From Glycomyces sp. L485 (GTDB lineage: Bacteria; Actinomycetota; Actinomycetes; Mycobacteriales; Micromonosporaceae), in assembly GCF_022548875.1 (NCBI RefSeq), contig NZ_JAKZEW010000011.1, forward strand, positions 1 to 64,000: 64,000 nucleotides of DNA, written 5' to 3'. The notes beneath the pieces are model-generated. The model had not been told where the DNA came from. It did no database searches and worked only from the letters and a program-made list of their open reading frames with translations. This document shows positions 2,539-36,265 of the stretch, piece after piece. The translations under genes and the position numbers were made by a program. Positions within the stretch are counted from its first letter, which is position 1. Each line of letters opens with the position of its first letter.

Positions 2539-2745
2539 CGGGAGATCCTCCTTCCAGGTCGGTTCGAGGAAGCTGGTGCTGCGTGTTGGCAGGGCACCAG
2601 TCTCGATGGGCAGTGAGGTCAATAGCAAACGCTTTTGCATCGCGCGGTCATCGCTGGCGTGTTGAAGGGGGTTCGGACGTCGGCACGCCGTACTGGGTTT
2701 CCGTTGAGCTTCGCGGGGGACTGGCCCTGACCATCGGTCCCGCGC

Positions 2746-5700
2746 TCAGAGCCGGTCGGACCCGAGGCCCGCCAGGGCGGCCGCCAAGCCGTCGAGCAGT
2801 GAGGAGAACTCCCTTCCCTCGGGGTCGACGATGTCCTTCGAGGGGGCGAGGATGTCGGACTCCGGCAGGCCCGGCCAACTCGGCTGGACCTCTCCCTCCC
2901 CGCCGTTGGCGACCGTGCGGTACATCAACCGGAAGGCGCTGCACCGACCAGCGAGCTGCGTCCAGCGCGGGTCGGGAGTCGCGGTCGAGCCGGCCTCGCG
3001 CGGGCCGACGCCGAGGACGCGGGCCATGGCAGAGCGGCGGGCGTCCCGCACGGTCGCGCTCACGCCGTCCTTGAGATCGTGGCCGACGAACGCCAGGTCG
3101 GTCGAGCCGTCGAAGGTCAGTCCTCGCCGCGAGAACGTCGAGCCGCCGACCAGCGCCCACACGTCGTCCACGACCGCGAACGTGCCCCGGAGGTTCTCGG
3201 GCCGTCCCGGGAACCCGACCGGGTGGTAGGCCGCGACGCGTTTCGGGAAGGCGTCGGTCAGCGTCTTGACGGCGCGGTTCCGTTCCAGGTACATCCGGTG
3301 CGCGAAGGGCTCGTATCCGGGGCCGAACGGGATCCGGCGGGGCGTCACCAGCACCACCTTCAGGTTCGGTTCGGCGCTCATGCGGTTCAGCAGCAGGTCT
3401 ACCAGGTCGACCTTGTGGTCCTCTGTGGTATCCGAGGTGTGCGACAGGAGGGCGGTCTCGATGTAGACCAGTTCGCGCGCCTGGGAGAGCGCCCACCGCC
3501 AGGCCCACTGCGCGTCGCGCCGTCCCTGGTGGGACGCTCTCGCCTCTCGTTTGAACTCGGCGACCCAGCGGTCGCCCGCCGTCGGCGTCGGCAGCGAGTC
3601 GAGCGGCGCGAGCGAGCCCGTCAGCAGCGAGCCGATCGCACTGATCAGCCCGGCCCAGGTGTCGGGGAGGGCTTCAACGTCCACCAGCTCCAAGGCGGCC
3701 CGGAGCTCGGGCGATTCCACAGTGTGCGCCACCGATTGGAGGACGGTCCCGGTGGCGTTGCCGGACGGGCTGGAGACCGGGTTCCATTTCGCGTCGTCGA
3801 GTTCTACCAGCCGCGTCACGATGTGGTGGGTGCGGCGCAGCGCCGCGCGGGCCAGGTGCTGCGCGAGCGGGCCGGTGACCCGCACGCCCGGGGCGTGCTC
3901 CTCCGGCCCGGCGGGCAGCCCGGGGCTGCCGCGGCGGGCGTCGCCGCCGAGCGAGTCCGCGGTGAGGAAACCCGGACCGGTCACCGAGGTCCAGGATCCG
4001 GGGCCGGCGCCGTCGTGCCCGCACACGGTCGTCTCGGTGCGGGCCATGGTGGCGAACCGCGGCGATTCACGCGGGGCCGCCGCGCCGAGCGCGTCGAGCA
4101 CGATGTCGGTCCCGGTGTGCGTCACGGTCTGCTCGAGCCCGAGGACCGGCGTGGGACCGATGCCGCGGTGGTCGTCGGCGATGTCGTCGAAGGCGTTCGG
4201 GGTGGTGCCGTCGGGCGGTGCGGTGCCGCCGTCGCCGACCTCGTCGATCTCTACCGAGCCGAACAGCCGCTCGGCCCCTCCGGAGGGGCCGCGGGTCACG
4301 ACGAGCAGGTCGAAGACCAGTTTCGGGCTGGACGGTCGCGGGTCGGCACCGATCCCGAACGGGTCCCGGACGCGGATTCGGCATTCGGAGCCGGCCGGGA
4401 CGATGGCGCCGCCGCCGTCGCCGCGTTTGGAGAACCGCAGCCGCTCCAGGGGCCCGGTCGCCCGGCCCGGGTCGACGCGGGGGAAGGCCCGCACGAACGC
4501 CTCGGCGGGCAGCGCCCCGGCCGGCCAGGTCACGACCACGTCTGGGGTGGTGCCGATGTAGGCGGCGGTGGCGTCGGCGCGGGCGGCCGCGGAGTGCTCG
4601 GCGGTGAGGTCCTCGGCGGTGCCGGCCGGCGCGGGCACCTCCGGCCAGCGTTCGGTGCGGCTTCCCGGCAGCGGGAAGTCGTCGGCGATGGTTGGGCTGA
4701 CGGCCAGGCGCGTCCCGGAGAGGCCGGCGATCTCGCCCGCCGCGCCGAGGAAGGACTGCCCGTTGGACAGCACTTCGAGGTCGCCGGTGCCGAGGTCGGG
4801 GGCCGGTTCGTTCGCGGTGGCCTCGTCGGCGCCGTCGACGCCGCCGATCGCGCCGGTGCCGCGGTTGCCGGCCAGGTGCAGGCCGAGGTCGGCCACGGCC
4901 ACGCGGAAGAACTGGCGTTCGAGCTCGGGGGCCGGCGACTCGGCGGGTACACCGGTGGTCGGCAGGGCCGGGGCCGAGATCGCGGCCGTGCCGAGTTCCC
5001 CGTCGGGGAGCGATCCGATGCGGACCGCTCCGGAGTCGTCGGTGACGGTGAGCGCGCCGCTCCACTCGTGCGGTCCGGCCCCGAGGCGGGCGCCCGAGCC
5101 GATGCGGACCCCCTCGCGGGCGGGCTCGTCGTTCCACAGCTTCCCGAACAGGTCCACCAGGTGCAGCCGCACGGCGGCGGCGGTGCCCAGACCGGCGATC
5201 TGCGCGACCGACCCGGCCCGGGCCGAGTCGGTGACGTCGTCGGCGGTTCCCGCCTCGCGGCGGTGCAGGGCCGGTATGGCGCGCAACAGGTCCCGCATCA
5301 TGCAGGCGACGGCGACCGGATCGATGATCAGGCCGCGCTCGTCGTGGAACGTCAAGCGGCCCTGGCCGATGTCCTCTCCGGCGAGGGCGGTGTCCGGCCG
5401 CATGGGCTTGTCGCCCGGCAGACCCGACGGCGGGGTGCCGCCGCGCAGCGCGGCGTAGAACGGGGTGGGCCGGCGGTGTTCGCCGCCGTCGAACCGGTCG
5501 GCGGCGAGTCCTTTGAGTCGCAGTGCGCCCTGCGGGTGGAACCGAAGGACCGCGACTGTGCCGTCGAGACTCGCGCCGGTGTGGTCGGTCAGTTCGGGCG
5601 CGCCGAGCCGCGACCAGACCAGGTAGCCGTCGATCGGGGCGCGCCAGGGGGCGCCTGAGTCGAGGCTCATCGAGGCCTCGTCGAGGCTCGGTCTGGTGTC

Positions 5701-5793
5701 GGCCCAGTTCGCGGACAGTTGCGCCGAAGCGTGGCCGAGGGCCTCCAGGCCGGTGGTGTTGAAGGCGGTGCTGGCGAGAGTCGAGTTGATCAC
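2746..5793 (-). CDS. Giant operon protein 3: unknown with degenerate PLD-like C-terminal region
   Basis: A 1015-residue protein with a GTG start inside the GTGA overlap with the gene upstream, so it is translationally coupled. No signal peptide or membrane segment is seen. The first ~750 residues are Gly/Ala/Asp-rich, probably beta-rich, and not recognised. Residues about 765-945 resemble a phospholipase-D-superfamily fold: a strand before a putative active site (ARELVYIETALLSHTSD), a helix and strand (LKVVLVTPRRIPFG), then a second half-repeat (GTFAVVDDVWALVGGSTFSR, then RGLTFDGSTDLAFV). The second half matches the context of an HxKxxxxD motif, but the His and Lys are absent. It is therefore likely a non-catalytic or very divergent member. 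Last gene of the three-gene operon; function unknown. Confidence 0.75.
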   Translation of the reverse strand: MINSTLASTAFNTTGLEALGHASAQLSANWADTRPSLDEASMSLDSGAPWRAPIDGYLVWSRLGAPELTDHTGASLDGTVAVLRFHPQGALRLKGLAADRFDGGEHRRPTPFYAALRGGTPPSGLPGDKPMRPDTALAGEDIGQGRLTFHDERGLIIDPVAVACMMRDLLRAIPALHRREAGTADDVTDSARAGSVAQIAGLGTAAAVRLHLVDLFGKLWNDEPAREGVRIGSGARLGAGPHEWSGALTVTDDSGAVRIGSLPDGELGTAAISAPALPTTGVPAESPAPELERQFFRVAVADLGLHLAGNRGTGAIGGVDGADEATANEPAPDLGTGDLEVLSNGQSFLGAAGEIAGLSGTRLAVSPTIADDFPLPGSRTERWPEVPAPAGTAEDLTAEHSAAARADATAAYIGTTPDVVVTWPAGALPAEAFVRAFPRVDPGRATGPLERLRFSKRGDGGGAIVPAGSECRIRVRDPFGIGADPRPSSPKLVFDLLVVTRGPSGGAERLFGSVEIDEVGDGGTAPPDGTTPNAFDDIADDHRGIGPTPVLGLEQTVTHTGTDIVLDALGAAAPRESPRFATMARTETTVCGHDGAGPGSWTSVTGPGFLTADSLGGDARRGSPGLPAGPEEHAPGVRVTGPLAQHLARAALRRTHHIVTRLVELDDAKWNPVSSPSGNATGTVLQSVAHTVESPELRAALELVDVEALPDTWAGLISAIGSLLTGSLAPLDSLPTPTAGDRWVAEFKREARASHQGRRDAQWAWRWALSQARELVYIETALLSHTSDTTEDHKVDLVDLLLNRMSAEPNLKVVLVTPRRIPFGPGYEPFAHRMYLERNRAVKTLTDAFPKRVAAYHPVGFPGRPENLRGTFAVVDDVWALVGGSTFSRRGLTFDGSTDLAFVGHDLKDGVSATVRDARRSAMARVLGVGPREAGSTATPDPRWTQLAGRCSAFRLMYRTVANGGEGEVQPSWPGLPESDILAPSKDIVDPEGREFSSLLDGLAAALAGLGSDRL

Positions 5794-8700
5794 GGGGCGC
5801 TCCGGGTTGACGAGGTGCGGCGCCCCAGTGGGTCGGTCGCCGAGGCGGTGACCGACAACGGGACGGTGGCGATTCGGGCGGTGACACGGTACGGGTCGGC
5901 GGCGGTGGCGCGGTGCAGGAACAGCTCCGGCGCGTCCGGCGGCGGTGTCCCGGTGTAGGACGGCAGCGAGCCGATCTCGCCGCGCAGCACGGTCGTCTCG
6001 GTATCGCCGGCGTTCGCGCGCACCGCGACGACCGAGACGGTGAAGGCCCCGAGCCGGGTGCGCAGCGGCGAGGCGTCGGTTCGGAAGGTGGCGACGGCCC
6101 CGCCGGAGCCGTCGGAGGCGGGCACGACGGTCAGGCCGGTCACGGTCGGCGCGTCAGGTGCGGGAACGATGACCTCGGCCGCCGGGGTCGGGTGGGAGCG
6201 GCCGGGGACCTGGCCGAGCGAGGCGTCCGCCGAGGCGACCGCGACGGCCCGGTAGTAGACCGGCTCCCACGGCGGCAGCGGGTCCGAATCGGTCAGTTCC
6301 CAGTGGAGCTTGCCGTCGTCGGCGGTGGCCGTGGTTCTGTTCGCGATCAGCTCCGGCGCTCCGGCCGCTTCCGGCGTGCCCGCGTTCACCCTGCCGCGTA
6401 CCCTGCCGATCTCGATGCGTTCGGCGGCGACCGGCTCATCGTCCACGGTGGCCGAGAGCCGGACCGACGCGCCGTCCCTGCGCGCCAGGAGCAGCGGCAC
6501 GGACGGTTCGAGCCGCACCGGCGCGGCGACGGCGAGGTACCGGTTCGCGTCGGCCGGGAGGCGGCGTTCGATGCCGGTGTCGCTGATCGAGGAGATGCCG
6601 TAGAAGTGGATGAGCCGGTTGCCCTTGGGCAGTTCGACCTCCAGCCTCGGTTCGGTCAGCCGCTCGGTGTGGCGCCGGAAGGCGCGCCTGGCCGATCCGA
6701 AGTCGTGGCCGCGCAGGTCCGCGAGCCGTTCGACCGCGGGCTCATCCAGGTCCGGTGACGGCAGGCCGAGTTCGCGGGCCACGGCCGTCTCGTCGGCGAC
6801 GTACACCGTGTAGCTCGGTCCCGCTCCGGACCAGTCGAGTACGGCGCGGGACACTCCGGCGGCGTCGGGGAGCGAGGACCACCGCATCGGCGCGGTCGTC
6901 ACCGGCGCCGGCGGGGGCAGTGGGCTGGCCACGGCGGTGCCCACCGGCGAGGAGTACTCGCTCAGCGCGAGCGGGCGGACGAGCTCGGCCGCGCGGGCCC
7001 TGGCCTGGACGCGGATGCGCGGGTGGGCCGCGTACGGCAGTCCCAGGCCGGGGATGGTGCACCGGTAGGTCCGCAGCTCGCCTCGACGTTCCTCGAGGAT
7101 CTCCTCGACGCCGGTCGGCGGCGACTCGCTCGAGGCCCCCGAGAACGAGATCACGTGGTCGCCGACCCTGGGGCCGCCGGGGGACAAGACCGAGCCGTCC
7201 GCGTCGGGAGGGGTGGTGCCTTCGGGGTGGACGGTGAGGCCGATGTGCACTTCGGCCGGGCGGCGGTCGGCCCAGTCCCAGGTGAACTCGACCGCGGCGG
7301 CGGGGGCGGGCCCGGACTCGTCGATCTCGACCCGGCGCACCGTCGGCCGCTGCGGCGGCATGACCAGCCGGTCGTGCCGGACCGACCGCCACGGGCTCCA
7401 GCGGCCGAACCAGTCCTGGGCCGCGACGCTGAACCGGGCCTCGTCCGATTCGCCGGGGAAACGCTCGGGGACGGCGGACCGGGTGTACCTGACCTGGTCG
7501 GTCTCGTCGCTCAGGCCCGGCACGAACACCCGGTGACCGCCCGAGGGCCGCTCGTCCAGCGCCGGTTCGAGCTCGGATCCGCCGACCGAGCCGAGCACGG
7601 CGTAGCTCGACGCGCCGATACTCGAGGCCGTGTCCGGCCGGTCCGCATCCCAGGTCAGGTCCACGATCTCCAGCCACGGCCGGTCGATCCCGCCGGGTCG
7701 GTCCAGGCGCGGGCTCGTCCGGTTCTCGTTGACACGCAGCCGCGCCGGCCGGTCCGGCGGGTCGCCGCCGACGACGACGAGCGCGGCCAGGTCGTGTTCG
7801 AGCGGCAGCCGCAGGTCCAGGCCGGCGACCGTCATCTTGAACTCGGCCTTGTGCTTCAAGGTCACCATCAGCAGCCCGCTCACCATCGACCGGTACTCGA
7901 TCCGGTGGGTCACCGCCGGCGGGGCGGACATGAGCGCTGCCGCGTCGATCGAGGTGCCGAAGCCGAGGGCGAGCGCCGCGTACGGGTCGGTGCCGGCCGC
8001 GAGCAGCGCCGACTGCAGCGGCGGCAGCTTCGCGTTCGAGCTCGATCGCCAGTGCGAGGGGGCGTCGGTGCCGTGCACCGACTGCGGCACCGGCACGGAC
8101 TGCTCGAGGACGTACCGAGCGTGGCGGCCCCGGTCGCCGGCCTCCCGCAGCATCTGCGCCAATTGCTCCATCGTGGGTTGCAGCTCGCCGCGCACCAGGG
8201 CCTCCGGGTCGGGCGGTTCGAACGGCGGCACCGGGAGTCCGGAGTCGGTCGTGGGCGCCCAGAAGTCGGCCGGGGTGCCGCGCTCGACCCGCCGTACGGC
8301 GGCCTTGACCGGGTCGGTCAAGGCGCCGGGCGGGCCCTGCCGGTCGAGCGGGTACCCGCCGGAGAACCGCTCGTCCACCGGGAGGCCGACGTGCTCGAGC
8401 AGCTTCCACCCGGGGTCGTCGACGTGCCGTTGCAGATCGAGGACCACCACGCCGGTGACCGTCGCATTCGGACTGGTGGTGAGGGAGCGGATCGACGCCC
8501 CGGCGAGGGTGAGGCCGACCCCGGTGGCGGGACCGGCGGCCGTGACCTCGTCGACCACCTGTCCGGACCCCGACGGGCCGGAGTGCGCGCGGACCAGCGC
8601 CCGCCCGGAGGAGACGTCCAGATCGACCCGCACCATCGCTGCGGCGCGCTCGTCCGGCCAGATGTGCAGCACCCGATCCCGTACGGCCCGGTCCGACCGG

Positions 8701-8876
8701 ACGTCGACCTTCTCCGGTTTGGTCGACGGCTTCGGCAGGTGCCACACCTTGAAGTGCGTCGTCGGCAGGCCGAGCTCCGGATCGATCATCCAGCGCAGCG
8801 CGGCCCTTGCACCGTCGCGGGTGTCGATCACGGCGCCCTTGGCGTTGAACAGGTTCGGCATCACGGTGCGGGTCAT
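5790..8876 (-). CDS. Giant operon protein 2: large beta-rich protein with FN3-like modules
   Basis: A 1028-residue protein starting at ATG 8876, which overlaps the stop of the 2328-aa gene by 4 bp (ATGA). An in-frame extension further upstream is rejected because it lies wholly inside that gene. No signal peptide. The N-terminal half begins MTRTVMPNLFNAKGAVIDTR and contains several segments of strand-turn pattern. The middle and C-terminal parts show repeated FN3/Ig-like blocks: WDWADRRPAEVHIGLTVH, VLDWSGAGPSYTVYVADE, and a block ending YYRAVAVASADASLGQ. I recognise no enzyme motif. Its length, coupling and beta-sandwich content suggest a structural or binding partner of the 2328-aa protein (inference). 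Confidence 0.75.
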   Translation of the reverse strand: MTRTVMPNLFNAKGAVIDTRDGARAALRWMIDPELGLPTTHFKVWHLPKPSTKPEKVDVRSDRAVRDRVLHIWPDERAAAMVRVDLDVSSGRALVRAHSGPSGSGQVVDEVTAAGPATGVGLTLAGASIRSLTTSPNATVTGVVVLDLQRHVDDPGWKLLEHVGLPVDERFSGGYPLDRQGPPGALTDPVKAAVRRVERGTPADFWAPTTDSGLPVPPFEPPDPEALVRGELQPTMEQLAQMLREAGDRGRHARYVLEQSVPVPQSVHGTDAPSHWRSSSNAKLPPLQSALLAAGTDPYAALALGFGTSIDAAALMSAPPAVTHRIEYRSMVSGLLMVTLKHKAEFKMTVAGLDLRLPLEHDLAALVVVGGDPPDRPARLRVNENRTSPRLDRPGGIDRPWLEIVDLTWDADRPDTASSIGASSYAVLGSVGGSELEPALDERPSGGHRVFVPGLSDETDQVRYTRSAVPERFPGESDEARFSVAAQDWFGRWSPWRSVRHDRLVMPPQRPTVRRVEIDESGPAPAAAVEFTWDWADRRPAEVHIGLTVHPEGTTPPDADGSVLSPGGPRVGDHVISFSGASSESPPTGVEEILEERRGELRTYRCTIPGLGLPYAAHPRIRVQARARAAELVRPLALSEYSSPVGTAVASPLPPPAPVTTAPMRWSSLPDAAGVSRAVLDWSGAGPSYTVYVADETAVARELGLPSPDLDEPAVERLADLRGHDFGSARRAFRRHTERLTEPRLEVELPKGNRLIHFYGISSISDTGIERRLPADANRYLAVAAPVRLEPSVPLLLARRDGASVRLSATVDDEPVAAERIEIGRVRGRVNAGTPEAAGAPELIANRTTATADDGKLHWELTDSDPLPPWEPVYYRAVAVASADASLGQVPGRSHPTPAAEVIVPAPDAPTVTGLTVVPASDGSGGAVATFRTDASPLRTRLGAFTVSVVAVRANAGDTETTVLRGEIGSLPSYTGTPPPDAPELFLHRATAADPYRVTARIATVPLSVTASATDPLGRRTSSTRSAP

Positions 8877-11800
8877 GGCATCTCCCAAGCGGGACGGTCG
8901 AGCGGGAACTCGCCGAGCAGCGCGGCGGTGTCGGCGGTGTCGAGGTCGAGCAGCGGGTGCAGTTCGCGGGCGAGGCCGAGCGCCACCGTCGAACCCCGCG
9001 AGCCCGGTTTGAGGAAGGCGAGGGTGCGGGCGCCGCTGGTGTCGCGGGCGAACCGCTCGACCTTCGCGGTGGCGGGCGGCTCGGGCCGCAGCTCCTCGGG
9101 CAGGTGGCGCAGGAACCTCTCGCGCAGCTGTGCGATCGTCGGCGCCGTGACCTCCGGCGTCGCCCGTCCCGGCCGGACGTACCCGGACTCGGCCAGCGAG
9201 CCGCCGCCGGACTCGATCAACTCGTCCACCACGAGCCATTCGCTCCGGTTCAGCCGCCACTGCAGGATGTGGACGCCGTCGTCGGCGTAGACCGGCTCCG
9301 GTTCGAGGCGGCTGCGCCACAGCGGCTCGGGCGCCTCGATGTAGATCGCGACCGGGACTGCCTCCGCGTCGGCGTTCCACAGGACGGTGATCTGCGGGCT
9401 GGCCGGCCGCGGACGGGCCTCCAGGCCGACCTCCGTCAGCGCCCGGTCGAACTCGTCGTCGCCGACCGCGCCGTCCAGCGCGGTGAGCGCGGACAGGCCC
9501 TCCACTCGCCGGTGGACCACCCTGGACTCGCGGACGGCGCGGGCGAACTCGTCCCGGCTGCCGTACCGGGAGGTCGTCATCCGCTGGCGATACAGCGGCC
9601 GCTCGCCGATCTCGCCCTCGCGCGGCTCGGGCGCGGCGACGTCGCCGCCGTCGTCCAGGGCCTCGATGTCGATGACGTAGTCGGTGACCGGGTCGAGGTG
9701 GAAGTCGACTGCGGCGCGGCCATGCCGGTCCCCGCCCGGATCGAAGTCCCGGCAGGGCTTGTCTGCGAGGAGGCGCCGCGCGGTCGCCTCGAACGGGGAG
9801 AGCACCAGCGCCTCCATCCGCTCGAACAGCCCGTCGAGCATGACGCGGGTGAACGGCGCCTCCGGGGTGCCGTCCGAGCCGCGGAACGACGCCGCGCGGG
9901 CGGCGGCCCGCAGCGACCGGTCGTAGGCGGCGTACAGCTCGAGCACGTCGTCGGTGGCGAACACGAACACCACCGGCTCGTCGTGGAAGTGGTGCGGCTC
10001 GTCCGGAGCCGGGAACTGCGCGAGCATCCACGGTTCGAGATTGCGCGGCGCCTTGTCGTCGGTGAAGAAGGTGCGAGGGTCGGTCTCATCGGCGATGGTC
10101 CACTTGACGTCGATCTGGTTCGGGTCGCCCTCCTCGCCGTCGCTCGTTTTGCGCCCGGTCTCGGCGGTGTAGTGGACGACGACCCGGTATTCGGCGTCGG
10201 GCAGCAGCAGCGCGTGCGGGTCGGAGTCCAGTGAGTCCGCCAGGGCCTCCTCATTGGCCTCGGCCTGCCGGTCCTCGGCCTCGTGGCGGCGGCTCTCGCG
10301 CTCCGAGAGCCCCTCGAACGCCACCAGGAACCACGACGGGGCGAGCAGCCCGAAATTCTCGACGGCGTCCCGGAGCGGCCGGAGGCCCAGGTCGATGTGG
10401 AAGGCGGCCCGGGGCGGCTTGACGTGGACGAGGAACTCGGCCCGGCGGCCGGTCCCGGACTCGTGACCGCGGGCGAGCCGCACCTCGTCCCACCAGGGGC
10501 CGCGGGTGTCCCTCCATCGCTCCGGGAGGTCGGACTCGGCGCCGACCCGCTCGAATGCGATGTCGACCGGGCCGAGGTCCCGGTTCGCGGCGTCGTAGGC
10601 GGCGGCGCCCATCAGCCCGGCGCCGACGAGCTTCTCGTCGGCGACGACCAGGAGCGTCAGCACCTCGTGCGGGCCGCCGCTGATCCGGACGACGTCTCTG
10701 AGCCCCTTGGCCCGCGCTTCGTCGGCAACGGCGAGCGCCTCGCCGAGCGGGCTGTCGAAGACCTCCGGCTGCAGCGAGGTGCCGAGCAGCTCGTAGGGCG
10801 CTTCGAGCACTTTGGAGGCGCACATCTTCTCGCCTTTCCGGTGGGCGCGCTCCTGCAGCTCCTTCGACGGGCACTGCACCCGCGAGCCGACGATCTCGGC
10901 GGGCTTGTGGGGGAGGAGCCCGTCGAGCGGGGTGCCGGTGCGCCAGATCTCGCGGACGACGACCTCGGCGTCGACCGGCCGGGTACGGCGGGATCCCGGC
11001 TCGTCCGGCCAGGCCTCGCCGTGCGGGCTCCACCCGGCGTCGTTCGGCCCCAGCGGGCTGTCGCGGAACGTCCACAGGACGCTCGCGGGCCGGGCGACCG
11101 GCGTGCACGCCTCGCCCCAGCCGTCCTCGACGATCCGGTCGAGCGTCTCGCCCTCGAGGATCGCCTTGTCGGTGTTCGTCGGCTTCCAGTCCAGCATGGC
11201 CAGATCGACCGGAAGGCCGTCGCCGCTGCCGTCGTCGGACCCGATCCGCCACGTGTACGGCCTGGGGCCGTCCGTGGTCGGCTCCGTCCCGGCCGCGACC
11301 GGGACGCCGTGCTGGGCCACCAGCTCGAGCTCGACCCGGCTGACGTGGTAGCGCACGTAGACCGTGCCGCGCTTCTGCCATCCGTCGTCGCCGGGCGGCG
11401 GCGCGCCCTGGACGGTCCCGTCGATCGCGGAGCCGTCCACGACCGGGCCGGCCTCGAACTGCAGCAGCGGGATCGCGTCGATCGGGACGCGCACCTCCCG
11501 CGGACCGTCACTGCCGTCGACGACCGGGACGGTACCGTCCCGGGTGCCGCGGCACAGCACCGTGTCGACGCCGCGGTCGACCGCGCTGCCTTCGGCAAGG
11601 GCCGGGGAGCGACTCTGGAGTGTGAGGTCGCGGATCGGCCGGGGCGGGGGAGGCTCGTCGGGGTCGTTGCCGAGCGAGAACTCCACGCAGGCCTCGATGG
11701 TGAAGAACAGCAGGCTGATCTTCCCGCAGACCTCGCCGTGGATGTAAGTGACCAGCTCGGTCGAGGGCGGGTCGCCGTGGCCGGTCTCGACCTCGGCGGC

Positions 11801-14800
11801 CTTGACCGTGAGCGCGGCGCTGGCCTCGATGGCGACGATGATCAGGTGCAGTGCGCCCCTGAGGTAGATCCGGCCCGCGAAGGTGAGCGGCGCGAAGCCG
11901 ATACCGGCGTCGAACCCCGCGGCGACCTCGAGGTACAGGCCGATGTCCTTATCGCCCCAGGTGATCGAGACTTCGAAGCCGGTGGCGAGGGAGAATCCCT
12001 GGAGGCCGTCCCTGATCAGCGGGAACTGCGGGATGCCGTTGCCGTGGACCATGAGGTAGGCGGTGGCATCGAACACTTCGAGGACCGTGGCCTTGATCGG
12101 CTCGCCGATCGTGCCGATGTCCACATAGAAGTTCTCGGGGTCCTCGAAGGGGAAGCCGGCCTCGATGGGGATCTGGAGGTGGAGGATCTCTTTGATCTCG
12201 TATTCGATCTGGATGCCGATCATCACCCCGTTCGGGTTGATGTCGACCACGGCCAGCAGGTTCCCGGTGGTCGTCCCCTTGGTCGCTGGTTTCTCGCTGA
12301 GCAACTGGGCCTTGACGAACAGGAGGATCCGCGGTCCGGGCAGCTCGAGGACGAGCATGCCCTTGATGTTGAGGATCGTGCCGCCCTCGATGGTGCCGGC
12401 GACAACGCCGAGGCCGAAGGCCCAGGAGTCGAGCTGCCCCTTCCAGCCGGTGATGTCGGTGGGGTTTCCGTGGACTTTGGAGTCGAGCCAGTCGAGAGCG
12501 GGGTTGCGCGCGGAGGTGTTCTCGTCGCGTGCGTGGTGCATCGCGAACAGGCCGAGGAAGCCGAAGATCGCCATGCCCGTGCCGCCGAGCGGGATCCCCC
12601 CGGGGAACTCGACCTCGAGGGTCGCCAGCACGCCGGTGGCGGAGCGGTCGCCCTCCTCGACGGTCTCGATCTTGACGCCGGCGGCCACCCGCAGTCCGAC
12701 TGTCGGCAGGGCCAGGTCGAGCTGCCCGGCGAAGCTGTCGTCGAGGATCTGTAGGTAGCCCTTGCCGACGAGGGTGTCGGGGATGTCGACGCCGATGCCT
12801 ATGGCGGTGATCGCCGGCACCCCGAGCGGATCGACCGGCAGCCGGAAGCCGAACTTGTCGACCTTGAACACGCCGAGGTCGACGCCGAGGCCGAGGTCGA
12901 CTTCGATGTTGAGCGGGTTGGTCCTGGCGATGCGGGCGCCCAGAACCTGGATGATGTCGCCTATGGCGTCGCCAAGAGCGGGCAGGACCCGCAGCGACCC
13001 GGAGTCGGCCAGGTCGAGCGTGTAGCCGCGGGAGGAGTCGAACACCGGGCGGAAGTCGGGCGTGCCGTCGGGGGCGACGTCGAGTCCGAAACCGATCGCC
13101 TTGTATCGCACCTTGATCGGCTTGTCGACGCGGGTGGTGACGATCTCGAGGTCTCCGATGGCCAGGTTCAGGCGGATGGCGCTCTCGACGTCGAACAGCA
13201 GCACCGAGTTGACCTCGTCCTCGTCGTGGGTGACGCCGAGTTCGATCCCGTAGTGCGTGAGCCGGTCGACGTGCGCGATACCGAGCGCGGTGACGACGAT
13301 CGGCGTTGCCAGGGAGACGACCAGCGGGACGACATCGCCGCCGTTCGCGGCGTCGGCCGCGGTCGACGAGGTCAGCGGGGCGAGGGCGAAGTAGAGGCCG
13401 AGCAGGTCGCGCCAGGCGTCGTCGGACGGCGTCGCGTCCTCCGAAGCCGGGATCTCGCCCCAGCTCCACAGCCCGTCCCGGTCGCCCGCGCCGGCACGGG
13501 CGACGAGGGTCTCGGTGAAGGTGGCGGTGGCCGGGTCGTGCGTGACGGTGATCCGGAACTCGACGACGCCGTCGTCGGGGTTGGGTTCCGAACCGAGCGC
13601 GGGGAGGTTGCTCTCCTCGGGCTCCTCCAGGCCCGGGCCGATCGTGCCGAGGTCGTCGCGGTACTGCTCCAGCGCGTCCTCGTGGGCGGTCTGGAAGTCG
13701 ATGGTGCCTCGCAGTTCGGCGGCGGTCGGGACGGGGTCGCGTTCCCAGCGGATGGTGGCGCCGATGCTGCGAAGCCAGTCCGGCCGCTGCGACTCCGGCG
13801 GCGCGATCGGATCGTCGTCTTCGTCCTCGTCGGGCTCGGCCGGGTCGCGGATCAGCTCGCCCGAGTACGGGTCGGTGCGCGGCGCGGTGCGGACGAATGT
13901 GGCCACGACGTACCGGAAGTTCTCTCTGCGGTAGTTCGGGTCTGAGCTCATCACCTCCTCGGCCGGGGCCTCGCCCCAGGGCATGACCCGGAAGTCGGAG
14001 TCGCGGAGGCTGCTGATCTCCTCCATCAGGGCAGCCTTGAACGCTTCGGCGCGGCGTGCGGAGAGGGCGAGGTTGTAGTCGGGGTTGGCGGTCCCCTCTC
14101 GGCTCGCGTAGGCGTTCATCTCGATCCGGGGCCTGGTGCCCGAGGCGAGCTCAGCCTCCCAGCCGCGGCGGAACGCTCCGAAGTCGAGTGCGGTGCCGTT
14201 CCCGGAGGTGAAGGCGGTGCCGCTCAGAGTGGCGGTGTCGGTCGTCTCCCGGTCGCCGGGCTCGGCGAACCGGAAGTAGGCCTTGAGGGTGGCCGGCTCG
14301 GGGGTGGGCGGAACGGTCCATTCGACGTTCAGCGGCCGGGTCTCTCCCGGCGCGATCGGCACGGTGGCGCGGCCGTCGGTCACAATGGTGCCCGCGATGG
14401 CGCCGTCGGGCGGATCGAGGCGGACGGTCACCTGGTTCGGGTCGGACTGGTCGACGATGCGGACGCGGTCGGTGGGCGGTTCGAGGCGGACCGCGGGCGC
14501 GCCGTTCGGGTCGGTCTCCACCGAACGGCCGCTTAGTTCACGGACGGCGTAGAGGTCGAGGACGAGGTACAGCTTCCGGTCTTCGCGATCGGAGATGCTC
14601 ACGACCACCTGCTGGTCGTGGGGGAACAGGCGCATCCGCTGCAGCGCGGACAGATCTCGCACGTCGGTCGTGCCCGCGATGAAGGCGTCGAGGGTGTCGG
14701 TGTCAGCGGTGTGGCCGTCGACCGCGCCGTGGTCGAGCGCGTGGGCGGCGGTGATGGTGTACGGGGCCGCGCCGGAGTTCACGTCGACCATGAGCAGGTA

Positions 14801-15859
14801 GTTCTCGGTCTCCGGCCGCATGTTCGAGCTGATGTTGGCGCGGTAGCGGCGGAGCTCAGCCGGGTCGCCGGTGCGGCCCCCCGAGGGCTCGATCTCGGCC
14901 GAGGAGCCGCCGGCGCTGATCAGCCGCAGACTGGCCGCGAGATCGTCGCCTCGGAAGTCCAGATCGAAGCTGATGTCGCCCCAGATGGCCGGCTCGGGCT
15001 TGAAGCCGATTATCAGGTCGCGCGCTCCGACGTTGCCGGCGTATCCGACCGACTTCGCCTGCGAGAAGTAGAACCGGAACTCGGGCAGGTGGATGCCGGT
15101 GAAGTCGTCGCCGAGTCCGAAGCGGTCGAGCAGGTCTGGAGGGGTGTGCTCGTCGGACAGGTCGAGCACTGCCTTCTCCAGGCCGATGCCGAACTGGTCG
15201 TTGTGGAACAGGGCGAGCGCGGGCCGCATCTTGAACAGGGAGGCGACCTCCTCGTCGGGCTCGTTGAGCGTCTCGGCGCCCCAGGAGGCGACTTCGACTT
15301 CGGCGTCGGTGTCGGAGGCGGAGTCCTGGTCGACCTGAAGCACGATGCGCGGCAGGTCGAACTTGACCTCCCTGTTGTTCGGGTCGGGCTTGAGGAACGC
15401 GCCGTCGGGTTCGGCGCCGACCAGGCCGGGAAAGGTGAGGGTGATCAGGTTGAAGAGCAGCTCGAGGCGGAACTGGGTGTTGGGGTAGTCGCTGGGGGCG
15501 CTGTCGGCGGGCCCGAGCGCCCGGACGGCCGTCTGGAGGCCGCTGTCGGTCAGGTCGTCGGCGGAGAGCGACTCGGCCGGGCGACGGGCGACCGAGAGCC
15601 TGAAGTCGATGGCCGTGTCCTGCGGGTCGAACTCGAGGTCGCTCGCTCCGGGAGCGTTGGAATTCAGCGAGAACGCCAGGACGCCTGTTGATTCGTCGGC
15701 GACACGCGCGACGCCGCAGATGACGACCCCGTCGTCGTCCCAGGCCTCCTCGTATTCGTCCACGTGCAGGAATTCGAGGATCTGGTTGAATTCCTCGCCG
15801 AGGTCAACACCTACGAAGAAGTACGGCCGGATCAGATCGATGAGCGCGAGATTTCCCAT
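8873..15859 (-). CDS. Giant operon protein 1: 2328-aa multidomain protein with OmpA-like segment
   Basis: ATG at 15859 is preceded by AGGAG at 8-nt spacing. There is no signal peptide (MGNLALIDLIRPYFFVGVD). Residues ~1-500 are an unrecognised beta-rich region. Residues ~530-640 resemble an OmpA/MotB peptidoglycan-binding fold (IEMNAYASREGTANPDY, then NLALSARRAEAFKAAL). An acidic linker (DPAEPDEDEDDD) follows near 685. Residues ~900-1410 form a long Gly/hydrophobic region of amphipathic strands (VEFPGGIPLGGTGMAIFGF; AGFDAGIGFAPLTFAGRIYL) that could form a large beta-structure. I suspect a DUF-type domain of large bacterial proteins but cannot name it with certainty. The remainder (~1410-2328) is again unrecognised. 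It is the first gene of a coupled operon with the 1028- and 1015-aa proteins, and codon use resembles its neighbours. Confidence 0.8.
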   Translation of the reverse strand: MGNLALIDLIRPYFFVGVDLGEEFNQILEFLHVDEYEEAWDDDGVVICGVARVADESTGVLAFSLNSNAPGASDLEFDPQDTAIDFRLSVARRPAESLSADDLTDSGLQTAVRALGPADSAPSDYPNTQFRLELLFNLITLTFPGLVGAEPDGAFLKPDPNNREVKFDLPRIVLQVDQDSASDTDAEVEVASWGAETLNEPDEEVASLFKMRPALALFHNDQFGIGLEKAVLDLSDEHTPPDLLDRFGLGDDFTGIHLPEFRFYFSQAKSVGYAGNVGARDLIIGFKPEPAIWGDISFDLDFRGDDLAASLRLISAGGSSAEIEPSGGRTGDPAELRRYRANISSNMRPETENYLLMVDVNSGAAPYTITAAHALDHGAVDGHTADTDTLDAFIAGTTDVRDLSALQRMRLFPHDQQVVVSISDREDRKLYLVLDLYAVRELSGRSVETDPNGAPAVRLEPPTDRVRIVDQSDPNQVTVRLDPPDGAIAGTIVTDGRATVPIAPGETRPLNVEWTVPPTPEPATLKAYFRFAEPGDRETTDTATLSGTAFTSGNGTALDFGAFRRGWEAELASGTRPRIEMNAYASREGTANPDYNLALSARRAEAFKAALMEEISSLRDSDFRVMPWGEAPAEEVMSSDPNYRRENFRYVVATFVRTAPRTDPYSGELIRDPAEPDEDEDDDPIAPPESQRPDWLRSIGATIRWERDPVPTAAELRGTIDFQTAHEDALEQYRDDLGTIGPGLEEPEESNLPALGSEPNPDDGVVEFRITVTHDPATATFTETLVARAGAGDRDGLWSWGEIPASEDATPSDDAWRDLLGLYFALAPLTSSTAADAANGGDVVPLVVSLATPIVVTALGIAHVDRLTHYGIELGVTHDEDEVNSVLLFDVESAIRLNLAIGDLEIVTTRVDKPIKVRYKAIGFGLDVAPDGTPDFRPVFDSSRGYTLDLADSGSLRVLPALGDAIGDIIQVLGARIARTNPLNIEVDLGLGVDLGVFKVDKFGFRLPVDPLGVPAITAIGIGVDIPDTLVGKGYLQILDDSFAGQLDLALPTVGLRVAAGVKIETVEEGDRSATGVLATLEVEFPGGIPLGGTGMAIFGFLGLFAMHHARDENTSARNPALDWLDSKVHGNPTDITGWKGQLDSWAFGLGVVAGTIEGGTILNIKGMLVLELPGPRILLFVKAQLLSEKPATKGTTTGNLLAVVDINPNGVMIGIQIEYEIKEILHLQIPIEAGFPFEDPENFYVDIGTIGEPIKATVLEVFDATAYLMVHGNGIPQFPLIRDGLQGFSLATGFEVSITWGDKDIGLYLEVAAGFDAGIGFAPLTFAGRIYLRGALHLIIVAIEASAALTVKAAEVETGHGDPPSTELVTYIHGEVCGKISLLFFTIEACVEFSLGNDPDEPPPPRPIRDLTLQSRSPALAEGSAVDRGVDTVLCRGTRDGTVPVVDGSDGPREVRVPIDAIPLLQFEAGPVVDGSAIDGTVQGAPPPGDDGWQKRGTVYVRYHVSRVELELVAQHGVPVAAGTEPTTDGPRPYTWRIGSDDGSGDGLPVDLAMLDWKPTNTDKAILEGETLDRIVEDGWGEACTPVARPASVLWTFRDSPLGPNDAGWSPHGEAWPDEPGSRRTRPVDAEVVVREIWRTGTPLDGLLPHKPAEIVGSRVQCPSKELQERAHRKGEKMCASKVLEAPYELLGTSLQPEVFDSPLGEALAVADEARAKGLRDVVRISGGPHEVLTLLVVADEKLVGAGLMGAAAYDAANRDLGPVDIAFERVGAESDLPERWRDTRGPWWDEVRLARGHESGTGRRAEFLVHVKPPRAAFHIDLGLRPLRDAVENFGLLAPSWFLVAFEGLSERESRRHEAEDRQAEANEEALADSLDSDPHALLLPDAEYRVVVHYTAETGRKTSDGEEGDPNQIDVKWTIADETDPRTFFTDDKAPRNLEPWMLAQFPAPDEPHHFHDEPVVFVFATDDVLELYAAYDRSLRAAARAASFRGSDGTPEAPFTRVMLDGLFERMEALVLSPFEATARRLLADKPCRDFDPGGDRHGRAAVDFHLDPVTDYVIDIEALDDGGDVAAPEPREGEIGERPLYRQRMTTSRYGSRDEFARAVRESRVVHRRVEGLSALTALDGAVGDDEFDRALTEVGLEARPRPASPQITVLWNADAEAVPVAIYIEAPEPLWRSRLEPEPVYADDGVHILQWRLNRSEWLVVDELIESGGGSLAESGYVRPGRATPEVTAPTIAQLRERFLRHLPEELRPEPPATAKVERFARDTSGARTLAFLKPGSRGSTVALGLARELHPLLDLDTADTAALLGEFPLDRPAWEMP

Positions 15860-16326
15860 GGTTCGGGCTCCTGTGCGATGTGCTCAATGGGCGGAGGGAC
15901 GGCTTGGAGCGGGGTGCCTGGAATGATGGGCAGAATCGGAGGCACGCGCTTACAAGCTGGTCTAATACCAGAATTCGGCGGGTCTCAAATGTCCAATTAG
16001 TGCGTTTGTCAGTTTAAGTGGACGTTGCATGCGACAACCTGAGTATGGCACTCGTCTCGCCATCATGGGGTACGCGAATGTCCTTGCGTAATGAATTGAC
16101 TACCTGATCATGACGGGATTCAGCAGGTTTCCAGAAGGGGCCCAGGTCGTTTACGGCCTGGAGGAATTCGTGGCGACTGCCTGCCCGTGTACCGAGACGC
16201 TCGTTCGAAGCGGTGTTTGCCTGGATTCGTCAGCGGCTCTTGTGGCTTGAGTAGCAGCCTGGGCTTGCGCCGGTTTGTCCCCTGGCTGGTGAGGATTTGC
16301 CGGTCCGCGGTGTCGTCGCGGTGGCG
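15860..16326. other. 467-nt intergenic region upstream of the giant-protein operon
   Basis: No convincing gene. The part near 15950-16030 is clearly more A+T-rich than its surroundings and lies directly upstream of the operon starting at 15859, so it probably holds the minus-strand promoter. A weak TTTGAG/TATTAG pair at 16-nt spacing can be read there on the minus strand. One copy of a 27-bp direct repeat lies at 16193-16219. The part at 16220-16326 is the 3' flank of the helical-repeat gene. Confidence 0.5.
16193..16219 (+). repeat. Direct repeat copy 1 (27 bp, paired with 19862-19888)
   Basis: CGAGACGCTCGTTCGA followed by AGCGGTGTTTG. The same 16 bp, then CGTGGTGTTAG, occurs at 19862 in the same orientation (24 of 27 identical). 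The two copies bracket about 3.65 kb containing the helical-repeat gene and an IS3-like fragment. Confidence 0.6.
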
Positions 16327-19300
16327 TCACCGGTTGCCGCCCTCATACTCCTCAGAGGTGTAGACGCCGAACGCCAGGACCTGCACCATCGAGGACGGAT
16401 GAGCGCGCAGGCGGCGCAGCACCTCACGCCAGGGGGCTTCCCAATCGTCGGCGACCGCGGCGCTCTCGATGATGCCGGCCGCGACGATCGCTGCGTGGAG
16501 GTCCCCGGATCCGACCAGAGAGGTCAAGAAACCGAGCGTGAACGTGTGGGAACCGTAGTTCATCCGCTCGTCCAGGGCCTCGCCGATCAGCCGAGCCTCG
16601 ACCGGGTCTTGGGCACGGCTCGTCAGCGCTACCGCCGATTCTGTGCCCGCGTCCCAGTCGATTGTGCCCGCGAGGAGCTTCGTGCCCAGGTGGGTGGGCA
16701 GGCGTTCGGTGAGCGCTTCGACGGTGGTCGCGGCCGGGGTCGGGCCGCCGTACAGCGGGGACAGGAGCGAGACGATTCGCTCGAAGCGCTGGCGGACGGG
16801 CAGGTCGCGGTCCTTCTCGGCGTTGGGTTCGTCGGTCACGGCGCGCAGGGCGTCGACGGCGCGCAGCAGCGGCCCGGGGTCGCCGCCCGCGGTCACGTTG
16901 GCGCACAGGGCGTTCATCGCGGCAGCCCACACGTCGGTCGTGTCGAGGTCGGTCGCGAGGTCGACCAGCGCGTCGGCGGCGCGCGCTTCGTAGCGGGCCC
17001 AGCGGGCCAGGCCCTGGGAGCCGGTGACCTGGAGGCGCGCGTCGTCGTCGGAGGCGGCCGCGGTCAGCAGTTCGGTGTAGCGGGCGCGGAAGTCGGCCGG
17101 GACCCGCTCGGGCGCGAGGCCGAGCGCGGCGGCTTGGACGTCCGGGGTGTGCTCGTCGACGGCGGCGACGATCGCCTGCGCCCAGGGTTCGGCGAGGCGG
17201 TCGGCGGCGGTCGCGGCGACGGCCTCGCGGACGCTGGGGTGCAGGTCGGCTTCGGCCCAGAGCCCGGTCAGGATCTCGGCCGCGCCCGCCACGCGGTAGC
17301 GGGACAGAACCCGGACGACCTGCTTGTGGACGGTGACTTTGGGCGAGTCGAGGAGCCGGGGCGCCTGCGCGGCGATCACCACGGGTTTGGAGACGTGTGC
17401 GAGCCGGTCCATGACCGCGGCGGCCGTGGGCGCGTCCTTCGAGTCGAGGTATTCGGGCAGGACCTCCCAGACGGCTTGGGTTGGATTCGCGTGGTGGAGG
17501 TCCGCGAGGGCGATGGCTTTGACGTGCGAGTTGTCGCTGTGCAGCAGTGGAAGGAGCGCTTCGAGGGGGATCCCGGGAATCCGGGACAGGGCGCGCACGG
17601 CCTGGCCGCGGTGGGCGTCGGTGCGGCGGTCGTCGGTCGCGATCACCCGCAGCGCCTCCCGGTAGGCGTCGAGTGCCGCCTGCGGCCACCGGCCGAGGAC
17701 AGTCGGGTTCCAGGGCTGGAACAGGACGCCCGGGACGGTGTCGCGCTCGGCGGCGAGCCAGGCCTCTACGAGATCGCCGCGGTGCAGGGCCAGAGCCGGG
17801 AAGAGTTCGGGCAGGCCGGGGCGGGCGGTGGCGAGTTCGGCGAGCCTGTCGTGGCGGCCCTGGGGTATCCCGGCGAGGAGGCGAACTGCTTCTCGGGCGT
17901 GCGAGAGGTTCTTCGATTCCGACACCCGGTGCAGCAGGGCCACCAGTTCGGGGGCTTCGGCGAGTCTCCTGCCGAGGGCGCCCGCGAGAGTCCACAGGAG
18001 GTGGTACTCGCCGATCTCGGCTTTGGCCGCGAGTACGGGCGCTGCCCGCCGGGCCAGTTCGACCGTGAACCGGTGCGGGAGGGCGCGGAGGGCGGCGGTG
18101 AGCTGCCATCGGGTGGTCTCGGTCAGCAGGCGGTCGAACTCGTTCTCGCCGTATACGACGAGGTCGGGGCGGTCCACGCTGAGTCCGGTGTTGACCATGC
18201 GGGCGGCCAGGCCGACGATGAGCGACACAGTGGTCGAGGAGCGCGGGAGCGCCGTCAGCCACGACTCGGTCAGGTACGCCAGCTCGCCCAGGTGCGCCGA
18301 GGTCCAGTCCTGCGGGCGGACCTTCGTCAGGGCTCGGAGGATCGCTTCGTGCACCAGGCCCTGATCACCCGCGGCGCGCTTGAGGCGCCCGAACAGGTCG
18401 GTGAGCGCATCGGGGCTGTTTCTGAAGGCGGCGGCAGTCACGAGGTTGCCGTAGGCTCGCGCTCGCTCTTCGACGTCTGATCGCCTGGTCGCGGCGCTGA
18501 AGTGGTCCCGGACCTCCTCGTACGGCATGTGGGCGCGGGTCGCCTCCCTTCGCACGGCGTTGCCCGCGGTGCGACGTTCTTCGAGGAGCCTGCGGGCCGA
18601 CTCGATCCGGGCCCGGTGCGGCAAGATTTCGAGGAGGCTCCGTTCGTCGAGGTGAACGCCAGCGCTGCGAATCGCGTCGAGTACTTCGATCCGGCGGGAC
18701 GGCGCGACATAGCGCAGGACCCCGGGCACGTTCGCGTTCTCGCCGGCCCGGGCGGTCAAAGTCGCGATGCGCTCGGCGGGCTCGGCGGCGATCCGGCGCA
18801 GGTGGGCGTTGCGCTGGAACAGCGAGGCGAGCATGCGCTCGCGGTGCGGGTCGAGCAGATAGGCCCAGGTGCCGTCACGGTCGGCGGTGAGCAGGGCGGG
18901 GAGGGCCTTGAACACCGCCGCACTGTCGACGCTCGCTGCCGGGTGGCGCACTAGCAGGGTGAGCCAGGCTTCCGGTGCGTTTTCCAGGGCGGCGCTGAGC
19001 CCGGTCCGGTGGTGGCTCCACCAGTCGGTCCACTGCTCGGGGGTCCGGTCGGCGAGGGCGGCGGTCGCGTACGCGGTGAAGACCTGGATGTGATGTTTGG
19101 CGTAAGTCGACCAGGTGGCCGTGTGCGCGGCGAACGTGGGGAGTTCGGCAGCGACCACGGCCGAGGAGCAGGCTGACAGTAGCCGCTCGGCCTCCTGTAT
19201 GCCGTACCGCTCCTTGACGACCGGTAGGAGTCGGTCGGCCAGGGCCTCGTCCCGGTCCCTGCGCAGGGCTCCGTAGGCGGCCAGGCGCACCGCCTTCGAC

Positions 19301-19428
19301 TGGTCCGGGAGGGCCGCCGCGACGGCGTCGCCCATCCCGCCGACCCTGATCGCGGTCTTGAACGCGGCCTTGGCCTCTCCTGCGTTGGACTCGTCCAGGG
19401 TCGCGGTGGTGGGCAGGGTCGGCGGCAT
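16327..19428 (-). CDS. HEAT-like helical-repeat protein, 1033 aa
   Basis: The protein consists almost entirely of paired amphipathic helices rich in Ala/Leu/Arg with HEAT/ARM-like spacing (for example VRLAAYGALRRDRDEALADR; VIAAQAPRLLDSPKVTVHKQ). No signal peptide, membrane segment or enzymatic motif is seen, so it is likely a cytosolic scaffold or protein-binding protein. ATG at 19428 has TGGAG upstream. Its start overlaps, as TGATG, the stop of a truncated upstream frame whose last residues read RPHYGRIGRYRPDPDWSP, a YGRIG core reminiscent of WGR domains. A decayed WGR gene is also present at 20322-20545, so this gene may once have been coupled to a WGR-domain partner (inference). Same strand as the giant operon, 467 nt upstream of it. 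Confidence 0.8.
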   Translation of the reverse strand: MPPTLPTTATLDESNAGEAKAAFKTAIRVGGMGDAVAAALPDQSKAVRLAAYGALRRDRDEALADRLLPVVKERYGIQEAERLLSACSSAVVAAELPTFAAHTATWSTYAKHHIQVFTAYATAALADRTPEQWTDWWSHHRTGLSAALENAPEAWLTLLVRHPAASVDSAAVFKALPALLTADRDGTWAYLLDPHRERMLASLFQRNAHLRRIAAEPAERIATLTARAGENANVPGVLRYVAPSRRIEVLDAIRSAGVHLDERSLLEILPHRARIESARRLLEERRTAGNAVRREATRAHMPYEEVRDHFSAATRRSDVEERARAYGNLVTAAAFRNSPDALTDLFGRLKRAAGDQGLVHEAILRALTKVRPQDWTSAHLGELAYLTESWLTALPRSSTTVSLIVGLAARMVNTGLSVDRPDLVVYGENEFDRLLTETTRWQLTAALRALPHRFTVELARRAAPVLAAKAEIGEYHLLWTLAGALGRRLAEAPELVALLHRVSESKNLSHAREAVRLLAGIPQGRHDRLAELATARPGLPELFPALALHRGDLVEAWLAAERDTVPGVLFQPWNPTVLGRWPQAALDAYREALRVIATDDRRTDAHRGQAVRALSRIPGIPLEALLPLLHSDNSHVKAIALADLHHANPTQAVWEVLPEYLDSKDAPTAAAVMDRLAHVSKPVVIAAQAPRLLDSPKVTVHKQVVRVLSRYRVAGAAEILTGLWAEADLHPSVREAVAATAADRLAEPWAQAIVAAVDEHTPDVQAAALGLAPERVPADFRARYTELLTAAASDDDARLQVTGSQGLARWARYEARAADALVDLATDLDTTDVWAAAMNALCANVTAGGDPGPLLRAVDALRAVTDEPNAEKDRDLPVRQRFERIVSLLSPLYGGPTPAATTVEALTERLPTHLGTKLLAGTIDWDAGTESAVALTSRAQDPVEARLIGEALDERMNYGSHTFTLGFLTSLVGSGDLHAAIVAAGIIESAAVADDWEAPWREVLRRLRAHPSSMVQVLAFGVYTSEEYEGGNR

Positions 19429-35681: not shown

Positions 35682-36265
35682 AGTCGTTCTCGCGGCTGAC
35701 CCTGGTGCGCCACGCGCCGACCGCCGCGACCCGCCGCCACGCGTTCCCGCTCGACGAGCCGCTCGACGAGGCCGGTGAGACCGAGGCGAGCGGGCTGCGC
35801 GGCAGGCTCCGTGGCTCCGCGGCGGTCGCGGCCCCGGCCGCGCGGTGCCTCCGCACGGCCCTCCTCGCCGGATTCGAGCCGGTCGCGTCCGATCCCCGCT
35901 GGTCCGAACTGGACTTCGGGGACTGGGCCGGTTCGACTTTGAGCGAGATCGGCGACCGCGACCCCCGACGGCTCTCCGCCTGGCTCGACGACCCGCGATC
36001 GGCGCCGCCTGGCGGCGAGTCCCTTCTGTCGCTGCGCGAACGCGTCCGCGCGGCGCTCTCAGACCTCGCCGAGACCGTTGAGGACACCGTGGTGTTCACC
36101 AGCGGCGGCCCTGTCAAGGCCGCCGTCGCGGCCGTCCTCGACGCCCCCGACGCGGCATTCTGGCGGCTCGATGTGGCCCCCTGCTCGGTCACCGTCCTGC
36201 ACTGCCGCTCCGGGGTCTGGACGGTCCGATCCGTCAACGCCGACGCCGGCGGGGAGGGGAGATGA
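35678..36265 (+). CDS. Histidine-phosphatase family protein (CobC-like alpha-ribazole phosphatase)
   Basis: A 195-residue phosphoglycerate-mutase-fold phosphatase. The catalytic phosphohistidine motif is LTLVRHAPTAATRRH (RHA instead of the usual RHG), followed by RCLRTALLAGF, the acid-base region SELDFGDWAGSTLSEIG and the second His region VVFTSGGPVKAAVAAVL. The last site shows SGG where HGG is usual, so one catalytic His may be replaced. Location in the operon suggests removal of the 5'-phosphate of alpha-ribazole-P or adenosylcobalamin-P. The GTG start is within a GTGA overlap. Confidence 0.75.
   Translation: MKSFSRLTLVRHAPTAATRRHAFPLDEPLDEAGETEASGLRGRLRGSAAVAAPAARCLRTALLAGFEPVASDPRWSELDFGDWAGSTLSEIGDRDPRRLSAWLDDPRSAPPGGESLLSLRERVRAALSDLAETVEDTVVFTSGGPVKAAVAAVLDAPDAAFWRLDVAPCSVTVLHCRSGVWTVRSVNADAGGEGR

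Follow-up and report, generated by a model that had tools for sequence, protein, structure and literature searches.

The described family closest to the locus analysed here is DUF6603 (PF20248), which is named but uncharacterised. In the open literature (subscription journals and preprints fell outside the search), neither DUF6603 nor PF20248 is named in any paper, and keyword searches returned nothing relevant to cassettes of this kind; in the part of the giant-gene literature that was available, the matches listed name other giant proteins. Around nine DUF6603 genes (loci L046, L073 and L075–L081), single-linkage clustering of the genes at E 1e-8 placed members of two partner families, g2 and g3, at all nine loci and a further family, g4, at five, with many 4-nt gene overlaps; the clustering did not include L047 and L048, whose neighbours look related by BLAST. 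The VCBS, BGTF and lamin-tail annotations at these loci are carried by proteins from the g2, g3 and g4 families. In L075, L076, L079, L080 and L081, g4 follows the DUF6603-g2-g3 run, and four of the five g4 members carry an RQWQ-like motif (RQWE in one) near the N-terminus; we know of no name for this family. Three of the DUF6603-g2-g3 loci (L075, L077, L078) are haloarchaeal and plasmid-borne, so that the gene class spans two domains of life.

The locus described here lies on the minus strand of a 64,000-nucleotide stretch (the window) of the 4.4-Mb genome of Glycomyces sp. L485. Three open reading frames of 2328, 1028 and 1015 codons, designated A, B and C, were identified (Table 1). The original prediction had described three coupled-looking genes with ATGA and GTGA overlaps, and their coordinates and open frames were confirmed; the overlaps suggest that the three genes are translationally coupled. 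Gene B lies within a longer open frame (5790–10031); read from the ATGA start, it encodes 1028 aa with matching N-termini in both Glycomyces sp. L485 and G. salinus. Third-position GC was 0.93 for A and 0.92 for C in a greedy gene caller that left B unlisted, its long frame overlapping A. As had been predicted, no convincing N-terminal signal peptide was found in A, B or C by a crude hydrophobicity measure, and the same measure gave no clear one in the cassette proteins whose N-termini were inspected.

Table 1. Positions of the genes, domains, motifs and neighbouring genes in the 64,000-nucleotide window.
Feature	Coordinates	Strand	Description
Gene A	8873..15859	-	2328 aa, 252 kDa, pI 4.5; giant protein whose core is related to DUF6603
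A residues 820-1425	11585..13402	-	DUF6603-related amphipathic beta core; contains the most conserved part (901-1400)
A residues 576-633	13961..14134	-	OmpA-like segment; falls where the two Glycomyces copies are least alike (551-650)
A stop / B start	8873..8876	-	ATGA overlap; putative translational coupling
Gene B	5790..8876	-	1028 aa; constant neighbour of A, without library match
B residues 27-45	8742..8798	-	Conserved N-terminal motif, consensus LRWxxxPxLGLPxxPFxVW
B stop / C start	5790..5793	-	GTGA overlap
Gene C	2746..5793	-	1015 aa; third gene, optional
C residues 755-930	3004..3531	-	PLD-like domain (one catalytic half)
C residues 869-876	3166..3189	-	RGTFAVVD; degenerate site of HxKxxxxD (e.g. 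HAKVCVID in stand-alone relatives)
Upstream stretch	15860..16089	-	Present also in G. salinus; extends to the limit of the homologous block; possible leader or promoter
HEAT-like protein	16327..19428	-	1033 aa; next gene upstream of A; HEAT-like by look, without Pfam match
Lipase	27306..28883	-	GDSL-type, with ricin-type lectin domain
Cobalamin genes	36262..42570	+	CobD/CbiB, CobN

DNA comparison of window positions 1–24000 with 40 kb of the G. salinus contig revealed a single homologous block at 2735–16089, with 89.6% identity over 13,386 columns (13.4 kb). This block comprises A, B, C and 230 bp upstream of A, and it ends 11 bp past C. No other DNA match was found in the flanks at E 1e-8, and the translated comparison of the flanks gave short scattered matches only. 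Conservation of the 230-bp upstream stretch between the two Glycomyces was patchy, and promoter and terminator scans found neither a sigma-70 promoter consensus nor a terminator pattern. The encoded proteins are 88.0% (A), 86.1% (B) and 87.6% (C) identical to those of G. salinus, with dN/dS ratios of 0.32, 0.35 and 0.27, respectively, which indicates that A, B and C are real genes under purifying selection. Over-called reading frames are ruled out by this selection together with conservation across phyla. Cassette dN (0.067–0.078) was 2.6 to 3 times the rpoB value of 0.026, and cassette dS (0.21–0.26) was similar to that of rpoB (0.20) between the same two genomes; rpoB is the sole yardstick here, since the CobN and P-type ATPase genes of the window had no G. 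salinus match at E 1e-50. Although the flanks differ, a recent transfer between the two Glycomyces is thus unsupported.

The gene next upstream of A, for a HEAT-like protein, was matched in 5 of 22 Glycomyces genomes (its own included), and two of the matched copies contain an in-frame TAG. It has no match in G. salinus, which carries the cassette, and was ruled out as part of the system. Further along the window, a GDSL-type lipase gene and cobalamin genes were observed (Table 1).

Protein A is most conserved in its core, as seen across 16 A proteins. The long amphipathic-strand region that the original prediction had noticed was recovered at residues 900–1400: the fraction of amphipathic beta windows was 0.15–0.23 in six A cores and 0.17 in a DUF6603 protein, compared with 0.055–0.076 in shuffles. 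Elsewhere, values of 0.12 (B), 0.11 (RtcB), 0.07 (CobN) and 0.05 (C) were obtained. The core of the window protein itself has no Pfam match to DUF6603; six of 14 core homologues match the family, the best at 1.1e-13. When family profiles were compared, A matched a DUF6603 family of nine members at 98.2% (E 4e-14, 384 columns); none of the 14 other pairings of A, B or C with cassette families exceeded 1.0%. When small families were compared with three DUF6603 proteins only, the match was weaker, at 76% for the window type of A and 1.5% for the Paracoccus type. Against these three proteins, the single proteins from Mycetohabitans and Azospirillum reached at most 0.2%; against the nine-member family they reached 51% and 91%, respectively. 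On profile evidence, the A core is related to DUF6603.

The only Pfam match of the window A protein is a weak one to OmpA. The OmpA-like segment described in the original prediction was repeatable, since 8 of 14 homologous segments match at E ≤ 0.1 (best 1.2e-4), but it is weak: the window copy reaches E 4.2e-4 and 21.1 bits, below the Pfam gathering cut-off of 27.2. PHROGs yielded one weak match (E 0.014), which falls in the same region. Protein B has no library family match (none in Pfam at E ≤ 1 for the window protein), and residues L27, R28, G36 and P38 of its N-terminal motif are invariant in 16 of 16 rows. The FN3/Ig-like blocks once proposed for B were not recovered, as none of the 16 B proteins matched such families in Pfam at E ≤ 0.1.

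Protein C likewise has no library family match (none of the window protein in Pfam at E ≤ 1), and the degenerate PLD-like region reported from the first reading of the DNA was confirmed by alignment. At the place of the HxKxxxxD motif, none of the six C rows retains it and HxK is destroyed in all of them, whereas the motif is kept in all 18 stand-alone relatives tested (L003–L020, from a survey in which 29 genomes had such matches). The aspartate of the motif and the subsequent RRGLxFD are retained in all six C rows; because these were kept while HxK was lost, the PLD domain of C is probably folded but non-catalytic. The C family matches the intact PLD of a Mycetohabitans cassette at 94.7% by profile comparison, and the Oceanicella C protein matches other C proteins even when the PLD part is removed (84%, E 8e-6).

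Relatives of A are sparsely distributed. A full-length single-protein search, in which few candidates were scored per genome, found A in 1 of 396 phylum-sample genomes, its own, and the more sensitive core profile found it in 6 of 296 class-sample genomes, own included. Whole C was detected in 2 of 101 relatives' genomes (own included), and 29 others gave mainly PLD-part matches. These genome searches were samples, with Pseudomonadota genomes outside them. In a named genome collection, 13 loci with A relatives were identified, belonging to G. salinus, Rhizobium tropici, four Cellulomonas, Demequina, two Paracoccus, Sphingomonas, Roseococcus, Oceanicella and a contig filed as Williamsia. A plasmid collection gave seven records with A relatives, although this collection was searched by choice and the share of plasmid copies carries little meaning; A was matched over 95% of its length at 32% on R. 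tropici pRtrCIAT899c. The Williamsia contig (L032) is filed under a MAG; its third-position GC is lower and its neighbouring genes look different, which suggests that it comes from another phylum, perhaps Bacteroidota, and was binned wrongly. The A protein of the actinobacterium Demequina is 60% identical to that of Paracoccus aminophilus and 21% identical to that of Cellulomonas, from which we infer that the A-B pair very probably crossed between phyla.

B is the gene after A in all 20 close-type loci, which come from Actinomycetota, Alphaproteobacteria and the one contig of doubtful taxonomy (the window, L022, L023, L030–L042 and L056–L059, two of them R. tropici strains; the more distant Mycetohabitans cassettes L024 and L026, Azospirillum cassette L025 and G495 cassette L060 are not counted). 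With the nearest in-frame start taken as the beginning of B, the gap between the two genes falls between −4 and +2 nt at 16 of the 17 loci tabulated, a set that includes the distant Azospirillum locus and leaves out L056–L059; the exception is L032 (+147 nt). Pairwise identities of A and B correlate across 19 loci (Pearson 0.99, Spearman 0.87, 0 of 1000 permutations in a Mantel test), L058 being omitted because a contig end cuts its A gene. Furthermore, profile comparison shows the two A types to be homologous (100%, E 1e-87), as are the B subgroups in the five of six pairings that were run (95.7–100%; controls ≤0.4%). A and B are therefore one inherited unit with overlapping or near-overlapping gene ends.

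C comes after B in six of these 20 loci: the window, G. salinus, two R. tropici, L032 and Oceanicella. The neighbourhood survey places the trio outside the strain in which it was first noticed as well. The other 14 loci lack C, and apart from a hemopexin gene at L059 no obvious third gene of the system stands out among their ORFs. A search of 15 host genomes with the C profile found full-length C in two, both at known A-B-C loci, PLD-part matches alone in five and nothing in eight. The fixed-stoichiometry complex first proposed holds in part: the close spacing of A and B is a general feature, which makes an A-B complex likely, but a strictly fixed three-part system is unsupported because C is present in so few of the A-B loci.

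More distant cassettes carry other genes in the third position. In two of four Mycetohabitans plasmid records inspected, a large protein, an intact PLD and an A-related giant are encoded together, and the G495 cassette has the same gene set. One of the two Mycetohabitans giants inspected is annotated as DUF6603, but the family was not recovered when this protein was scanned with Pfam. The Azospirillum cassette encodes an A-like protein that is shorter, a partner about the size of B and a third protein, a Streptomyces relative of which directly precedes a DUF6603 gene. Another relative of this third protein, on a Rhizobium ruizarguesonis plasmid (L074), lies near a 2569-aa hypothetical protein, which has relatives in Rhizobium plasmids only, and near a Shedu-type nuclease gene. 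Neighbours recorded at other cassettes include PLD, a peptidoglycan-binding protein, an M64 peptidase, a weak PhoD-like match below the cut-off, hemopexin, WD40, an S8 peptidase and a pentapeptide protein; these are records of adjacency, not set against a background rate. The third slot therefore varies between lineages, holding nothing recognised or C with its degenerate PLD domain in the close-type loci, and an intact PLD or a peptidoglycan-binding-type protein in the more distant cassettes.

Searches for a described counterpart covered several further collections. Phage records gave no match for A or C, and viral contigs gave no confirmed relative; together with PHROGs, PADLOC and the tail-sheath search, they leave a phage, tail-like or defence origin unsupported. 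PDB sequence searches returned nothing useful (best weak matches at E 0.45 and E 0.21). Three-part Tc toxins were considered on account of the sizes of the genes, but Pfam shows no domains of that family, and the OmpA match is confined to A. No well-characterised family of known function was found for A, B or C. The earlier view that no described system has this composition stands in that respect and needs qualifying in another, as the A core is related to a family that already has a name. The cassette is nevertheless new as a system, because no described system tested or found fits it.

The reading we favour, with a probability of about 40%, is an obligate assembly of A and B with an exchangeable third part, probably acting at membranes or envelopes. 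A would be an elongated scaffold, and its amphipathic beta core would fold into a hydrophobic groove or barrel able to meet a membrane or carry lipid. B would bind A, in line with the physical A-B complex that the genomic pairing suggests, and the third gene would contribute a module for binding or cutting a substrate in the envelope. In this Glycomyces genome, C might bind a phosphodiester, phospholipid or another, and leave it uncut, or might simply fill the slot structurally. The most likely site of action would be a membrane or cell envelope, whether of the host cell or a foreign one, and the assembly would be an accessory trait that moves between hosts. The absence of clear signal peptides is the main difficulty for the envelope part of this proposal, since by that crude measure an envelope site would need an unknown route of export or lysis. 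Additionally, the WD40, S8 and pentapeptide neighbours would suit a cytoplasmic complex too. The loci without C or an obvious third gene (hemopexin at L059 apart) and the weaker core match to three DUF6603 proteins also count against it, as does the observation that RtcB and B exceed their own shuffles in amphipathicity, less so than the A core.

Alternatively, the cassette could encode a released or secreted complex of toxin-like or host-interaction type, assembled in the cytosol and set free when the cell lyses, with A and B as carrier and the third gene as payload or targeting part. We consider this unlikely. It would account for the patchy, in some hosts plasmid-borne, occurrence, for a third gene that changes and is of hydrolytic type in relatives, for the low-identity patch in A (551–650) between close species and for the hemopexin gene adjoining B at L059; but no toxin family is matched in Pfam by A, B, C or eleven relatives scanned, the C protein of the window has no catalytic motif, and the search for a contractile injection system or phage tail found a tail sheath in only 3 of 10 hosts and none in the genome itself.

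Two intracellular roles were also weighed, and each appears distinctly improbable. Patchy distribution, transfer between phyla and large coupled genes that in relatives have neighbours of WD40, S8 and PLD type would be in keeping with a scaffold for defence or conflict inside the cell, as would the missing signal peptides and the Shedu-type gene mentioned above, which lies at a locus where no DUF6603 was shown. Such a role sits poorly with PADLOC, in which none of the three proteins has a match at E ≤ 1, with Pfam, which found no nuclease or NTPase domain in them, and with the ten window neighbours, among which a Pfam scan recognised nothing defence-like. A body for intracellular lipid storage or transfer, in which the groove of A would bind lipid and C would recognise phosphatidyl groups as a dead PLD, draws on the amphipathic beta core, the PLD-type partner and, again, the lack of clear signal peptides; however, Pfam shows no match to a lipid-transfer family, and the OmpA-like segment and the peptidoglycan-binding and peptidase neighbours of relatives are left unexplained.

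Returning to the A-B assembly with an exchangeable third part, a broader proposal, which we hold a little more tentatively, is that DUF6603-type proteins are the constant anchor of widespread, undescribed giant-protein machines in bacteria and archaea. These would combine a fixed amphipathic-beta carrier with exchangeable functional parts, and the Glycomyces branch would be one in which the enzyme part is now a non-catalytic binding module. About 13 kb of coding sequence under selection, with an A-B part passed between phyla, points to a real molecular machine, and the occurrence in haloarchaea of a domain related to the A core adds to this case. If true, an anchor with changing partners would represent a novel modular strategy by which microbes put enzymes or binding modules to use.

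Compared with known families and gene runs, the cassette shows both likeness and difference. The Phospholipase D superfamily, represented by stand-alone actinobacterial proteins of mostly ~530–580 aa, is homologous in one catalytic half to residues 755–930 of C; C differs in lacking HxK in all six rows and in its long N-terminal part, for which no counterpart was found. A resembles the OmpA-like domain (PF00691) in the N..L...R helix residues, which are invariant in 14 of 14 rows (N97, L100 and R104 of alignment A7), although the window protein scores under the Pfam cut-off; Glycomyces is Gram-positive and has no OmpA-type outer membrane. The PF20248 gene runs of Streptomyces, Nocardia, Rhizobium lusitanum and haloarchaea share with the cassette a related amphipathic core and large neighbours that often overlap by 4 nt. 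They differ in their partners, as profile comparison shows no relationship of B or C to g2, g3 or g4 (≤0.2%), and A is about twice as long as PF20248 proteins and has an OmpA-like part. The Mycetohabitans operon is like the cassette in encoding an A-related giant (99.9%) and in filling the third slot with a PLD, whereas its gene order is different, its large partner resembles B weakly (55%) and its PLD is short and intact.
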